DNA of 47,569 nt from Candidatus Wolfebacteria bacterium (GTDB lineage: Bacteria > Patescibacteriota > Minisyncoccia > Phycocordibacterales > NVSU01), in assembly GCA_002401345.1 (NCBI GenBank), contig NVSU01000008.1, positions 1-47,569 on the forward strand. The letters are read 5' to 3'. The translations under genes and the position numbers were made by a program. The notes beneath the pieces are model-generated. The model was not told where the DNA came from. It ran no database searches and saw only the letters and a list, made by a program, of their open reading frames with translations. This document shows, one piece after another, positions 25 to 16,332 of the stretch (its first letter is position 1; each line of letters starts with the position of its first letter).

Positions 25-53
25 ATATATATCTGATCTTTATTGTTTACTGA

Positions 54-96
54 GTCCCGACGTTTCAGTCGGGACCCCGACCCTATAGCGTCGGGG
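54..96. repeat. two adjacent GC-rich hairpins in a tRNA spacer
   Basis: GTCCCGA at 54-60 pairs with TCGGGAC at 69-75, and CCCCGAC at 75-81 pairs with GTCGGGG at 90-96. These stems are far richer in G+C than the surrounding DNA. They lie between the cut tRNA and the copied 3' end of tRNA-Leu. They could be processing or terminator structures, or parts of the repeat system of this region. Function unknown. Confidence 0.5.
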
Positions 97-114
97 CTAT
101 GGGCGGTACTCATG

Positions 115-230
115 TGCCGGGGAGAGGACTTGGTCACGAATTACTAATTCTCCGCCAGCTGGCGGATCATAAGTATTCTCGACCCCGGCTCGCTATCGCT
201 ACGCGACACAGCTGCGCCTTTCAAGTCCTT
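115..230 (-). repeat. tRNA-associated palindromic repeat, copy A (behind tRNA-Leu)
   Basis: Positions 115-131 duplicate the last 17 bases of tRNA-Leu (285-301). Next comes a 91-bp core (132-222), nearly identical to the core of copy B at 448-538 (four substitutions). The core contains the 16-bp palindrome TCCGCCAGCTGGCGGA (151-166) and a second palindrome GAATTAGTAATTC (minus sense). The far end (221-229) carries the reverse complement of the same tRNA's T-arm, so AGGACTT and AAGTCCT bracket the core as an inverted repeat. No ORF in it looks real. It resembles a REP/MITE-like element with ends matched to its host tRNA. Confidence 0.75.
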
Positions 231-284
231 ACGAAAACCAAGCAGTTGGTTTTCTTCCCCGACATGTTTTCATTTCAGTCCTTG

Positions 285-366
285 TGCCGGGGAGAGGACT
301 TGAACCTCCACGGATTGCTCCACTAGTTCCTAAGACTAGCGCGTCTACCAATTTCGCCACCCCGGC
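285..366 (-). tRNA. tRNA-Leu(TAG)
   Basis: The minus strand folds into a class II tRNA: acceptor GCCGGGG with its perfect partner, D-arm, anticodon stem CTAGT/ACTAG around loop CTTAGGA (anticodon TAG, reading CUN), a long variable arm and a T-arm with loop TTCAAGT. The discriminator base is A and CCA is not encoded. It is downstream of tRNA-Cys, with a repeat element in the spacers on both sides. Confidence 0.96.
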
Positions 367-385
367 ATATTATGTTGTCAATTTG

Positions 386-625
386 TTGTGTACTCCCACA
401 CCACTCGTTCGTCCATTTTGGACTCACTTGAGGCGTGGGCGGGAATCGGTCACGAATTACTAATTCTCCGCCAGCTGGCGGATCATAAGTATTCTCGACC
501 CCGGCTCGCTATCGCTGCGCGATATAGCTGTGCCTTTCGATTCCCGACGTACACAAAGAAGTTTGTGTACTCCCACACCACTCGTTCGTCCATTTTGGAC
601 TCACTTGAGGCGTGGGCGGGAATCG
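386..625 (-). repeat. tRNA-associated palindromic repeat, copy B, between 63-bp direct repeats (behind tRNA-Cys)
   Basis: 386-448 and 563-625 are identical 63-bp direct repeats. Each contains the 3' part of tRNA-Cys from the T-arm onward plus its downstream flank. Between them is the 91-bp core (448-538, palindrome at 467-482) and a hairpin GTACACAAA/TTTGTGTAC (549-571). The core is bracketed by GGGAATCG (441-448) and CGATTCCC (538-545), the T-arm half of tRNA-Cys and its reverse complement. In copy A the corresponding brackets match tRNA-Leu instead, so the ends follow the host tRNA while the core stays constant. Confidence 0.8.
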
Positions 626-679
626 AACCCGCGCATGGCGGTTTTGCAGACCGCAGCGTTACCACTTCGCCACCACGCC
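608..679 (-). tRNA. tRNA-Cys(GCA)
   Basis: The minus strand gives a 72-nt cloverleaf with acceptor GGCGTGG/CCACGCC, anticodon loop CTGCAAA (anticodon GCA) and T-loop TTCGATT. The discriminator is U, as expected for tRNA-Cys. CCA is not encoded. The first 16 bases of the gene are repeated twice more upstream in an 87-bp tandem array. Confidence 0.96.
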
Positions 680-853
680 ATTATATAACATTGTATGAAT
701 CATGCGAGTCCAGTATGGCCTCAGTGTGAACCCTGTCCACCTCTGGTGGGACTTCGCCACCACGCCATTATATAACATTGTATGAATCATGCGAGTCCAG
801 TATGGCCTCAGCATGAACCCTGTCCACCTCTGGTGGGACTTCGCCACCACGCC
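664..853 (-). repeat. 87-bp tandem repeat copying the tRNA-Cys 5' end and its promoter
   Basis: The block beginning ACTTCGCCACCACGCC occurs at 664, 751 and 838, a constant period of 87 bp with only two mismatches between the full units. On the minus strand each unit has a possible -10 (TACAAT) 10 nt before the first 16 nt of tRNA-Cys. In the two upstream copies a short hairpin (CCACC-aga-GGTGG) then replaces the rest of the tRNA. The long minus frame across the array is a repeat artefact. Each upstream unit could make a short RNA that begins like tRNA-Cys. Confidence 0.85.
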
Positions 854-859
854 TATATA

Positions 860-1183
860 TTAGATCTCTTTTGATAATCGGTCAATCAGTTGTCTGTTTT
901 TCTCACCCAAATCAATTTCTAAATCTATAAAAGGAATTATTTTTGTGTCCATTTTTTTCTTCAAGTAATTACGCATGTCAGCACGTTTCCTTTTTACAAA
1001 ATCCAATACAGCTTGCTCTTTATCTTCAGGCAATACCGTAATATAGATTGTAGCATTCTTTAGGTCTTTTGAAACAGTTGCATGGGTAACAGTAATCAGT
1101 GCGGTTCTGTTCGTCTGTGTTTCGATATAGTACGCGGCAAGCTCCTTTATCAAATTTCCTACTTTTTCTTGTCTCGTTGTCAT
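860..1183 (-). CDS. rbfA: ribosome-binding factor A
   Basis: RbfA is a single KH-like-domain protein that binds the 30S subunit and helps mature the 16S rRNA 5' end and central region. The 107-residue length is normal for the family. The signature region VSKDLKNATIYITVLPE (about 37-53) matches the usual 'SpDLk.A.vyvsvlg' strand, and the C-terminal helix-strand ending in IPFIDLEID is also typical. The gene starts one base after the infB stop, so the two are an infB-rbfA operon as in many bacteria, here probably translated together. There is no recognisable Shine-Dalgarno sequence. Confidence 0.93.
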   Translation of the reverse strand: MTTRQEKVGNLIKELAAYYIETQTNRTALITVTHATVSKDLKNATIYITVLPEDKEQAVLDFVKRKRADMRNYLKKKMDTKIIPFIDLEIDLGEKNRQLIDRLSKEI

Positions 1184-4500: not shown

Positions 4501-4620
4501 ATGGATCCCGTTAAAGATCACAATGATATGTATATGGGAGGAAGAGTAGTAGACAAAATATTTAACAATAATTACGATAGGTATGAGTTACACGGAAATG
4601 TAATCATTTCCTATCTCTAA
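4501..4620 (+). CDS. possible 39-residue peptide, first of a tandem pair
   Basis: An ATG-to-TAA frame of 39 codons (starting MDPVKDHNDMYMGG, ending NVIISYL) lies wholly inside the first 124-bp unit. A TATACT-like box lies just before it (4487-4492). The stop is followed after four bases (CGGG) by the ATG of the second copy. I recognise no family. The protein reading is weak: all differences between the two copies change an amino acid, which argues against selection on protein sequence. The equal lengths and tight gene-like spacing argue for it. Confidence 0.3.
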   Translation: MDPVKDHNDMYMGGRVVDKIFNNNYDRYELHGNVIISYL

Positions 4621-4624
4621 CGGG

Positions 4625-4744
4625 ATGGATCCCGTTAGAGATCACAATGTTATGTATATGGGAGGAAGAGTAGTAGACAAAATAATTAACAATAATGATA
4701 ATAGGAATGAGTTACACGGAAATGTAATCATTTCCTATCTCTAA
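4625..4744 (+). CDS. possible 39-residue peptide, second of a tandem pair
   Basis: This is the twin of the frame at 4501-4620, the same length and with six substitutions (K6R, D9V, F21I, Y25D, D26N, Y28N). It ends with TAA followed by TGGG and the ATG of the protease-like gene at 4749. Its own ATG lies in the right arm of the 30-bp palindrome, so the start could be hidden in an RNA stem. No known family; it may be only a by-product of the repeat. Confidence 0.3.
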   Translation: MDPVRDHNVMYMGGRVVDKIINNNDNRNELHGNVIISYL

Positions 4745-4748
4745 TGGG

Positions 4749-10351: not shown

Positions 10352-10396
10352 AGTATATTCTTATTAAGTAATTTCTGGATTTACTATACCATAGCA

Positions 10397-10504
10397 AAAT
10401 AAAAAAGCCGCTCATACTGAGCGGCTTTAGACTACGGTGTAATCCTTGCAATGTGCTTGTTGTAATAGTTCTCATCATCTGTCACTTCTTTTATAACTTC
10501 AATC
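10397..10504. repeat. copy 1 of a ~106-bp direct repeat flanking the kinase gene
   Basis: This stretch matches 13251-13356 with one substitution and one A-run length difference. It contains the terminator stem GCCGCTCA/TGAGCGGC and the last 23 codons of the AAA-CYTH gene. The intervening ~2.75 kb holds mainly the histidine kinase. It looks like a duplication made when the kinase block moved in. Confidence 0.85.
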
Positions 10505-13227: not shown

Positions 13228-13250
13228 GTTTTAGTACAGAGAAGAGCGGA

Positions 13251-13356
13251 AATAAAAAAAGCCGCTCATACTGAGCGGCTTTAGACTACTGTGTAATCCT
13301 TGCAATGTGCTTGTTGTAATAGTTCTCATCATCTGTCACTTCTTTTATAACTTCAA
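13251..13356. repeat. copy 2 of a ~106-bp direct repeat flanking the kinase gene
   Basis: This is the native copy: the 3' end of the AAA-CYTH gene with its terminator. The degenerate copy is at 10397-10504. Confidence 0.85.
13253..13281 (-). terminator. terminator of the AAA-CYTH gene
   Basis: GCCGCTCA/TGAGCGGC (13261-13279) with a minus-strand U-run (13254-13260) directly after the stop codon at 13286. Confidence 0.85.
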
Positions 13357-14413
13357 TAAATGAAGGAATTTGAACTGTTTTATTTTCATTTGTAAGTTCA
13401 ATTTCAAGAAGTCCTTGATTCTTCTTAATATGTTGCTTGGGCTCATTAAAGAAATCGAGTTCAAAATATTGCTCTTGCCATATGAAACAACAACGTTTTT
13501 TCTTTATGGTTTCATAATTGGGATCAAGATTTAGAAGATTTATACCAAACATTTCTTCTGAAATTGATCCTTCTTTCTCTATACGTATGCCACTGCGTGT
13601 ACCTGTCTTCACAAAGTTTTTTTGTGTGCGAGTATAGATCCATTCATTGTTTTGACCCCTTTTTCTAATCCTGTCTTCGTCACGTTCATCGTCAACATTT
13701 AGATATGATTGTTCAATATCAATTAATCTATATGTGACAGGGAACTCACTCAATCGTGGCCTTTTGACTAGATATTTATTCTCAATTTCCAGTGGCGCGG
13801 GAATTCCTAATAATGCACAAATCTCTTGTAATGTGCGATTTAATTTCTCTTGGAATCCCGTACTATTGTCTATTACTCGCAAATGAGGATGACCAATCCA
13901 GGCATCAAGTGTTTTTTGATCTAATGCTCGTGCCTGTTCAGGAGATTCCGTTCTATACTTATTATTAGAAAGCGTATAGTGCTCTTCAGCACCTAACGCA
14001 GCTGTTCGAAGATGAATTACTCCTTCATATCGCTCATCTCTTATTTGAGGAATACTCCACCCTTCCTTTTTTATAATTTCATTGAAGGATTTTTCCCCTA
14101 CATATGCCATACTGTCCATCATTCCTCTGTCGCATAAAATAAGTGTTCGTTCGTAATCCATTGCATCTGCGATTTGTCTCCATCTATTCTCTTTCTCAAT
14201 CATATGATGGAGTAGATGCTTCTGAAACTCATCATTATGTAATTTAGTTGAAAAAGGAGTAATGCCACCATTCATGAATTGAGTAGCGACTTCATCAACA
14301 ATTAGTACATTGACGCCGTATTCACTTAATTTTCTCTTGATATAGCTGAGTGCGGAAGTTTTTCCTGCGCTAGGTCCACCCACCAAGGGTACAGATATTA
14401 TTTCTTTTTTCAT
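13286..14413 (-). CDS. AAA-type ATPase fused to a CYTH domain (TTD14-like architecture)
   Basis: Residues 1-200 form a P-loop kinase-like NTPase (AAA_28 type): Walker A GGPSAGKT at 12-19, DEVATQF at 40-46, and LILCDRG at 91-97 as Walker B. Residues 207-375 form a CYTH (triphosphate tunnel) domain with the diagnostic ExExK motif E209-I-E211-N-K213, then rows of charged strands (DRIRKRG, GIRIEKE, LLEIELT). The same pairing is known from the eukaryotic protein TTD14 and bacterial relatives. CYTH domains handle triphosphates or inorganic polyphosphate; the actual substrate here is unknown. It is a single gene with its own terminator. Confidence 0.85.
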   Translation of the reverse strand: MKKEIISVPLVGGPSAGKTSALSYIKRKLSEYGVNVLIVDEVATQFMNGGITPFSTKLHNDEFQKHLLHHMIEKENRWRQIADAMDYERTLILCDRGMMDSMAYVGEKSFNEIIKKEGWSIPQIRDERYEGVIHLRTAALGAEEHYTLSNNKYRTESPEQARALDQKTLDAWIGHPHLRVIDNSTGFQEKLNRTLQEICALLGIPAPLEIENKYLVKRPRLSEFPVTYRLIDIEQSYLNVDDERDEDRIRKRGQNNEWIYTRTQKNFVKTGTRSGIRIEKEGSISEEMFGINLLNLDPNYETIKKKRCCFIWQEQYFELDFFNEPKQHIKKNQGLLEIELTNENKTVQIPSFIEVIKEVTDDENYYNKHIARITQ

Positions 14414-15408: not shown

Positions 15409-16332
15409 CTATTTCAAAAAATCTTTAACCAGAGCTTCTATTTTCACTATTTCAGTTGGATTGAACCAATGAATTTTTTTATTGCGTTTAAACCACGTAT
15501 TTTGTCTTCGTGCGTACTGCCATATTGCAGTTGCTAATTGATCTATGAATTCTTCCTCTGTTATTTTCTTTCTCAGATAGAGAGCCATATATTTATACTC
15601 AAGGCCGAGTTCGTCCATTCGCTTCCATGAGAGTCCTCCGCCAGTGGGCGGATTATGAAGTATGCGAGCTTCATCTATCATTCCTCCGCCAGCTGGCGGA
15701 TACATTCTTTTTTTAAGTCTGATTTTTATTTTACTCTTAAGTTCATCGTCACCTATACGAAGACCTATTAGGAGTACATCATATGGACTTTCTTTTTTCT
15801 GACTGGGGACACTTCCAAGTTCAGTCGCAATTTCAATTGCTCGAATTAATCTTCTTTTATTTTTTATATCTACTGTCTGTGAGCGAGATGGATCTATTTT
15901 AATAAGCATGCTGTACAACTCATCAATTGATTTTTCTTCCAACTCTTTTCGCAGTGCTTCATTGGGAGCTACCTCTGGAAAAGTCATATTAGATACAACG
16001 GTATCAATATAGAATCCTGTACCACCCACTAGTATCGGAACATGACCGCGTTCAGTTATCTGCTGTATTTTTTCTTCGGCAAGTTTCTTGTACTCAAACG
16101 CAGTAAATCTTTTTTTTGGATTTTCTACATCAAGGAGATAGTGAGGTACACCCTTCATCTCAGCCCTTGTGATTTTTCCAGTTCCCAGGTCTAATCCTTT
16201 GTATACTTGCCTAGAGTCTGCAGAAATGATCTCCCCGTCAAATGTAAGCGCGATATCAACACCAACATCACTTTTTCCTGTTGCAGTACGACCGAGAATC
16301 ACAATTAATTTAGATTTATTATTAGATGTCAT
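15409..16332 (-). CDS. miaA: tRNA dimethylallyltransferase
   Basis: MiaA adds dimethylallyl to A37 of tRNAs reading UNN codons, such as the Tyr, Trp, Cys and Leu(CAA) tRNAs of this window. The P-loop GRTATGKS is at 14-21, followed by SADSRQVYKGLDLGTGK (38-53), VGGTGFYID (102-110), RRLIRAIE (160-167) and the C-terminal WQYARRQNTWFKR (271-283). Two extra stretches, YPPAGGG (211-217) and NPPTGGG (227-233), interrupt the usually continuous 'GMIDEA...LH-GLSW' region. They are encoded by copies of the palindromic repeat, both in frame, so the protein probably tolerates them as loops. It is divergent from the peroxiredoxin gene. Confidence 0.95.
   Translation of the reverse strand: MTSNNKSKLIVILGRTATGKSDVGVDIALTFDGEIISADSRQVYKGLDLGTGKITRAEMKGVPHYLLDVENPKKRFTAFEYKKLAEEKIQQITERGHVPILVGGTGFYIDTVVSNMTFPEVAPNEALRKELEEKSIDELYSMLIKIDPSRSQTVDIKNKRRLIRAIEIATELGSVPSQKKESPYDVLLIGLRIGDDELKSKIKIRLKKRMYPPAGGGMIDEARILHNPPTGGGLSWKRMDELGLEYKYMALYLRKKITEEEFIDQLATAIWQYARRQNTWFKRNKKIHWFNPTEIVKIEALVKDFLK
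15637..15652. repeat. palindromic repeat inside miaA, copy 1
   Basis: TCCGCCAGTGGGCGGA differs by one base from the 16-bp palindrome at the centre of the tRNA-associated elements. It adds codons for PPTGG in frame. Confidence 0.8.
15685..15700. repeat. palindromic repeat inside miaA, copy 2
   Basis: TCCGCCAGCTGGCGGA is identical to the palindromes at 151-166 and 467-482. It adds codons for PPAGG in frame. Confidence 0.85.

Follow-up and report, generated by a model that had tools for sequence, protein, structure and literature searches.

A putative mobile DNA core behind tRNA genes of Patescibacteria, bracketed by forward and reversed copies of the tRNA end it follows

Organization of the tRNA-Leu and tRNA-Cys loci

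The window analysed here is a stretch of 47,569 nucleotides of a Candidatus Wolfebacteria bacterium (assembly GCA_002401345.1, contig NVSU01000008.1, positions 1 to 47,569), which begins in a cluster of tRNA genes on the minus strand. Two of these genes, tRNA-Leu(TAG) and tRNA-Cys(GCA), are each followed on their 3' side by a copy of the same core of 91 bp (132-222 and 448-538), with four differences between the two copies (96% identity). Read on the tRNA strand, both units have the same order (Table 1): the tRNA, ending in A1 (from C56 of the T-loop to the end of the gene); a trailer; a short reverse complement of the acceptor strand (P0'); a hairpin with a CTKC loop and different arms in each unit (H0); GT; A', the reverse complement of the T-arm 3' half; the core, which starts with GAAAGG and ends with GTGAC; and A2, a second copy of the tRNA 3' end.

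Table 1. Position of the features described in the window (coordinates of the whole stretch)
Position	Strand	Feature	Basis
284-366	-	tRNA-Leu(TAG), target gene	ARAGORN; Rfam tRNA
283-302	-	A1, T-arm 3' half and acceptor 3' strand of tRNA-Leu	direct repeat of 20 bp with 113-132
257-264	-	P0', approximate reverse complement of the acceptor 3' strand (TGTCGGGG)	sequence; same element in Cys, Phe, Val and other units
233-254	-	H0 hairpin GAAAACCAA-CTGC-TTGGTTTTC	sequence; same loop with different arms in other units
222-229	-	A', AGGACTTG, reverse complement of the tRNA-Leu T-arm 3' half	sequence; comparison of A' with tRNAs
133-221	-	Core (predicted P2 and P3 hairpins), Leu copy	core alignment, covariance model, covariation, folding
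113-132	-	A2, second copy of the tRNA-Leu 3' end, directly after the core	direct repeat with 283-302
607-679	-	tRNA-Cys(GCA), target gene	ARAGORN; Rfam tRNA
607-625	-	A1, T-arm 3' half and acceptor 3' strand of tRNA-Cys	start of a direct repeat of 63 bp (563-625)
572-579	-	P0', GGTGTGGG, pairs with the acceptor 3' strand CCCACGCC	sequence
549-570	-	H0 hairpin GTACACAAA-CTTC-TTTGTGTAC	sequence
538-546	-	A', CGGGAATCG, reverse complement of the tRNA-Cys T-arm 3' half	sequence; comparison of A' with tRNAs
449-537	-	Core (predicted P2 and P3 hairpins), Cys copy	core alignment
386-448	-	A2, second copy of the tRNA-Cys 3' end plus 44 bp of trailer	direct repeat with 563-625; comparison of A1 and A2
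664-865		5' part of tRNA-Cys (GGCGTGGTGGCGAAGT) with 71 bp of spacer, in tandem upstream of the gene	repeat search
40-110		Double palindrome TAGCCCCGACG..GTCGGGGTCCCGAC..GTCGGGA	sequence
15684-15701		Palindrome TCCGCCAGCTGGCGGA	sequence
4501-4748		Tandem duplication of 124 bp (94%)	repeat search
10396-10503 and 13250-13357		Dispersed repeat of 108 bp (97%)	repeat search

The initial annotation had described the shared core with its four differences, the direct copies of the tRNA 3' ends and the reverse-complement T-arm pieces, and this description proved to be real, although the direct copy at tRNA-Leu is 20 bp long rather than the 17 bp that had been claimed (the 63 bp at tRNA-Cys were confirmed). 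It had overlooked the H0 hairpins and the P0' elements, as well as three further copies in the same genome.

The 5' side of tRNA-Cys shows a counterpart of this duplication of tRNA ends, since the 5' part of the gene and its spacer are repeated with a period of 87 bp in two full copies and a partial third. The double palindrome at 40-110 is also found elsewhere in this genome (hereafter G000; contigs are numbered C1, C2 and so on) at C16:135688, C13:27117, C3:11705, C4:41319 and C23:2934. It sits 5' of tRNAs (Lys, Thr) with a copy of the tRNA 5' end before it, inside an apparent tRNA-Arg-like D-arm, and just before a sequence that looks like the RNase P RNA gene; it resembles a REP doublet of the RAYT type.

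Distribution in the genome and in the phylum

Two further close copies of the core were found in this genome behind tRNA-Gly(TCC) and tRNA-Gly(GCC), and a fifth, divergent copy lies behind tRNA-Thr. All five are on the tRNA strand, 3' of the tRNA, with ends matching that tRNA. The palindrome TCCGCCAGCTGGCGGA looked at first like part of the element; however it occurs at about 20 or more places in the genome independently of the core (e.g. C16:7137-7227 and C13:24377-24513), and it forms the tip of P3 only in the four close copies of this genome.

A scan of positions 1-1500 of the window against Rfam 15 returned only the two tRNAs above threshold, and the exact core pattern was not found in the genomic contigs searched outside this genome. 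A consensus pattern retrieved named relatives, including Parcubacteria bacterium LiPW_30, a Candidatus Yonathbacteria MAG and a Ca. Paceibacterota MAG, while none was found in viral contigs. We built a covariance model from 11 units, which found matches in 296 of 397 genomes of the same GTDB order (151 of 179 genera) and, more sparsely, in 37 of 380 genomes of a phylum-wide sample, including other classes. It should be noted that occupancy and the element-rich and element-poor labels used below rest on MAGs and on a search that scored only the best 9-10 candidates per genome. Of 10 loci outside the order that were scanned for tRNAs, 9 follow a tRNA or tmRNA on the same strand, and further places fetched from those genomes also lie by tRNAs.

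Target rule

We read 134 units in full. Of these, 96 lie within 150 bp 3' of a tRNA on the same strand, 17 lie 150-600 bp away (second units of tandem arrays or long spacers), 10 follow a T-arm-like sequence that was not called by ARAGORN (tmRNA 3' ends, tRNAs that look split by a group I intron, and one protein gene), 4 are at contig edges, and for 7 no tRNA was seen. In total, 123 of 134 units (92%) lie just 3' of a tRNA, tmRNA or T-arm-like site on the same strand, while with about 45 tRNAs per 0.8 Mb genome we infer that chance would give about 0.4%. The core is found behind many isotypes. The protein case (locus L093, genome G289) looks like the 3' end of gatB, judging by eye from the translation: the site GGTTCGGCAAACCC has T-arm shape, 46 bp of coding sequence are duplicated, and A' is GTTTGCCG(AA), matching this non-tRNA target. 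As targets include tmRNA genes and this site, the rule is the shape of a T-arm and not the presence of a tRNA transcript.

Other, unrelated cores (core II, GGAGGCCCCACATTTTGG..; core III, CAGGAAGGGGGTCGGGG..) show the same layout of A1, A', core and A2. They lie in this genome between tRNA-Gly(TCC) and the unit described here (locus L031, contig C1), and behind tRNA-Leu(TAA) (loci L166, L168 and L173), so that several core families may share the rule. In a subclass of units (L084 units 2-3, L063 unit 2, L085 unit 2, L080 unit 2, and L128) A' is complementary to the CACAAA stretch at the tRNA acceptor end instead of the T-arm.

Correspondence between the ends and the adjacent tRNA

In order to evaluate whether the ends are tailored to the tRNA, we compared the 9 nt of A' with the T-arms of the 96 units close to a tRNA. 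A' differs from the reverse complement of its own tRNA's T-arm by 0 or 1 positions in 79 of 96 units (82%), against 11% when it is paired with the tRNAs of other units, so the correspondence is not due to chance. At positions where A1 and A2 differ, A' follows A1 108 times, A2 17 times and neither 12 times; A' therefore tracks the working tRNA, while A2 drifts. In several genomes A2 reads CRAGA.. where the tRNA reads CRATTC.., and the same change recurs at different tRNAs (loci L082, L060, L049, L051, L084, L085, L122, L080 and L155). We also considered that each unit might be a decayed tRNA duplicate, but this idea was dropped because A' pairs also with T-loop bases that are unpaired in tRNA.

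The initial annotation had named two conditions that would count against it, namely that most copies elsewhere lie away from tRNA genes or have ends unrelated to a T-arm; both were examined across the order, and neither holds.

In 12 of 46 units with a well-kept A2, the identity between A1 and A2 runs at least 4 nt beyond the tRNA, against about 2% in a shuffled null, suggesting that A1 or A2 is a local copy rather than an import.

Probable mobility and INDEPENDENCE of core from ends

In one genus (g55) the orthologous tRNA-Cys gene is empty in genomes G283, G361 and G326, carries the same unit in G054 and G260, a different unit in G391 and an inverted subclass in G168. In G054 the A2 copy continues into the same flank as the empty site of G283 (TCAAGAAACAATTAAATA), so the insertion lies between A1 and A2.

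Core sequence does not follow tRNA identity. Across genomes, the median identity of cores at the same isoacceptor is 0.636, against 0.629 at different isoacceptors. The tRNA-Thr core of G000 is 87% identical to a tRNA-Ala core in another family, but only about 57-60% to the other four copies of its own genome. Four cores of G000 and three cores of genome G156 are 83-96% alike at different tRNAs; the three of G156, at Val, Tyr and Met, are 91-93% alike with entirely different trailers. In another genus (genomes G197 and G038), cores 96% identical sit at tRNA-Arg and tRNA-Lys. The core therefore moves or is exchanged between tRNAs, while A, A', trailer and H0 belong to the site.

These data bear on two alternative readings. 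In the first, the whole unit (A1, trailer, A' and core) would be a circle-borne cassette, with A'-core-A as its attC-like folded site, inserted in the T-loop by a tyrosine recombinase, so that each cassette would carry its own tRNA 3' end. It is in agreement with A' following A1, the start of its own unit, rather than A2, which it explains as well as our model does, and with the tandem arrays of different units found behind one tRNA. Moreover, insertion in the T-loop of tRNA and tmRNA is known for integrases, as for phage Ms6, which uses the tRNA-Ala T-loop (PMC1762012), and attC sites are folded single strands (PMC2727003). However, it predicts that trailers and A travel with cores, whereas near-identical cores sit at different tRNAs with entirely different trailers and A in G156 and G000, the trend being that trailers are not co-inherited with cores in recent transfers. 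The duplication running past the gene end and the indifference of the core to the isoacceptor also speak against it, and we consider it unlikely, although it remains the strongest of the alternatives. In the second reading, old units would sit permanently at each tRNA, with cores homogenized by gene conversion and ends kept complementary by templated (quasi-palindrome) correction, without any transposition. The similarity of cores within G000 and within G156 agrees with it, and templated correction would explain both the near-perfect Watson-Crick helices and the tracking of A1 by A'. It is weakened by divergent cores coexisting in one genome (G217, G205, G039 and the Thr copy of G000), by the resemblance of this Thr copy to a tRNA-Ala copy of another family, and by the existence of empty and re-occupied sites, and it seems improbable.

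Predicted structure

A'-core-A is predicted to fold as a three-way junction, with P1 formed by A' and A, and the hairpins P2 and P3 inside the core. Over 114 units, 93.4% of cells are paired, 847 cells are double-changed against 235 in shuffles, and the covariation score is 0.54 against 0.17, while slid versions of the structure collapse. Part of this signal lies in P1, which varies with the tRNA, but P2 and P3 show it too; since the alignment was fitted to the model, these figures lean towards it. Both DNA and RNA parameters give this fold (z from -3.3 to -5.3), hence a DNA form is an inference. Two features favor it: G.T pairs make up 1.8% of cells in the variable helices, against 4.2-5.3% in tRNA stems of the same genomes, and P2 loops are mostly of 3 nt, often C-GNA-G, which are unusually stable in DNA. 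This is suggestive of single-stranded DNA, but not a proof.

It is also possible that the unit is a functional RNA, that is, a structured 3' trailer of tRNA transcripts (tRNA-like or antisense to the T-arm) controlling tRNA processing, maintained by selection and inherited vertically. The strong covariation, the conserved internal-loop sequences, the location close to tRNAs on the same strand, A' being antisense to the tRNA 3' half, and the RNA folding z-scores of -4.7 to -5.3 agree with this hypothesis. On the other hand, presence and absence within one genus, the arbitrary choice of tRNA between genomes, the insertion at a gatB-like coding sequence, terminator-like hairpins between tRNA and unit, the few wobble pairs, core similarity not following tRNA identity and the absence of an Rfam match in positions 1-1500 of the window all weaken it, and we regard it as doubtful.

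Search for a mobilizing enzyme

The search for an enzyme associated with the units, by integrase and Y1 linkage, gave no partner. Phage_integrase (PF00589) was present in 24 of 25 genomes regardless of unit number, mostly as a single Xer-like hit in both element-rich and element-poor genomes, and was not found in the rich genome G391; in these genomes tyrosine recombinases do not appear to track the element. Y1_Tnp was found in 11 of 12 rich and 4 of 13 poor genomes, where the label "poor" is approximate, meaning no match in a search that scored only nine candidates per genome. However, no unit lies within 1.5 kb of any of 20 Y1 loci, which carry their own, different palindromes, and the rich genome G217 has no Y1. 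A mechanism of the RAYT/REP type, or of other HUH-mobilized palindromes, in which a Y1 transposase would move the core as single-stranded DNA with A' as a guide for the target, would agree with the uneven presence of Y1_Tnp and with the signature of single-stranded DNA hairpins; guide-target pairing occurs in IS608. Given the lack of linkage, and since IS200/IS605 elements are not known to make a target duplication, we consider this the least likely of the alternatives.

We also looked upstream of solo units for an autonomous version. A solo unit (L185, genome G025, contig C13) lies at the edge of a run of large same-strand ORFs over about 13 kb which resemble restriction/defence genes (helicase-like and DNA methyltransferase-like, judged by eye), and another unit (L187, genome G372, contig C1) lies inside an island behind tRNA-Ala with a serine recombinase-like ORF, but no consistent gene emerged. 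Units may mark the ends of larger islands.

Proposed model

The explanation that we favor, with a probability of roughly 0.6, is a non-autonomous mobile DNA element of Patescibacteria that targets the T-arm (GGTTCRA..) of tRNA, tmRNA and T-arm-like sites. In this view the moving part would be only the core (GAA-AGG..P2..P3..GTGAC), folding as single-stranded DNA. On insertion at TTC|RA in the T-loop, the 3' part of the target (A) would end up on both sides of the core, with A1 next to the 5' body of the gene, which keeps the gene intact, and A2 after the core, while A' would be formed directly before the core, so that A'-core-A closes into one hairpin. A recombinase or transposase acting in trans on the folded single strand would join the GTGAC end of the core to A in the T-loop; the free TTC end would be extended over A, giving A1, and turn back to copy A, giving A', before meeting the core.

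Our analysis demonstrates the anatomy of the units, their site and orientation, the target rule, the duplication and the mirror copy, the tracking of A1 by A', the independence of the core from tRNA identity, the presence or absence of units at orthologous sites, the covariation and the under-use of wobble pairs. By contrast, single-stranded DNA as the active form, an unknown enzyme acting in trans, and the regeneration of A' and A1 by copying of the target (snap-back or template-switch synthesis from the cut T-loop end) are inferred from sequence alone, with no excision or insertion yet seen experimentally. Snap-back copying does not by itself explain the H0 hairpin at a fixed place inside the reverse-complement arm, and a slow process of templated correction of near-palindromes could also keep A' matched to A1.

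The interpretation proposed in the initial annotation, an element acquiring or copying tRNA 3' sequence, for example by priming on tRNA or template switching, rather than by simple integration, is thus supported only in part. A fixed core with target-specific ends is the rule across the order, the ends must be re-made or exchanged, and duplication past the tRNA suggests local copying. However, nothing shows priming on tRNA or reverse transcription, the pairing pattern points to single-stranded DNA rather than RNA, and it is not shown that integration is not simple, since an unknown recombinase could do the insertion step.

We consider it about as likely as not that these units represent a phylum-wide class of minimal mobile DNA that keeps only a structured core and rebuilds both of its ends from every new target by local forward and reverse copying of the T-arm end, driven by a not yet known enzyme acting on folded single-stranded DNA. 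The family would be among the most widespread repeat families in Patescibacteria; it sits at essential genes and shows a rule, a fixed core with ends mirrored from each target, that none of the known recombination systems considered here produces. The question of what inserts DNA at T-arms and writes a reverse copy of the target next to it thus becomes testable; if an enzyme exists, it could be a programmable or shape-targeted inserter. The units also matter for annotation, since they create tRNA fragments and repeats at which contigs may end.

Comparison with known systems

No description of these units was found in the open-access literature, subscription papers and preprints being outside the search, and each known family considered here fails at least one tested defining feature or could not be fully tested. 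On this basis we regard the element as categorically new, leaving the enzyme open. In transposons and MITEs the terminal inverted repeats belong to the element and are constant, while here A' and A change with the target.

tRNA-targeting integrative elements and satellites (T-loop class integrases, tycheposon-like islands) share with our units the insertion in the T-loop of tRNA and tmRNA genes, the duplication of the gene 3' end on both sides and the occasional use of a protein gene. Here, however, the moving part is about 90 bp without genes, carries no fixed att core, occurs at many isotypes, and has a reverse complement of the target at its 5' end; an element-borne attP specific to one tRNA and inherited with the element is not observed, as near-identical cores sit at different tRNAs.

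Integron attC sites and cassettes are similar in being recognized by shape, as a folded hairpin with unpaired bases and variable sequence, in having cassette-specific complementary ends, and in forming tandem arrays; a folded site with complementary ends is also found here, its single-stranded DNA form being inferred. The differences are that the target is T-arms genome-wide, that the predicted fold is a three-way junction and that there is no cassette ORF; no integron integrase was seen, the search being limited to the general PF00589 family.

REP/RAYT palindromes and IS200/IS605 elements are short single-stranded DNA hairpins moved in trans, with some targeting by base pairing. In our units the target is duplicated, the ends are target-specific, and no linkage with Y1 genes was found at the 20 loci examined, whereas REP palindromes flank or sit near their Y1 transposase gene.

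SINE-like or retron/retrozyme retroelements have in common with the units an association with tRNA sequence and a structured core, but here the tRNA part comes from the local target, the insertion is at the gene itself, and the pairing pattern points to DNA.
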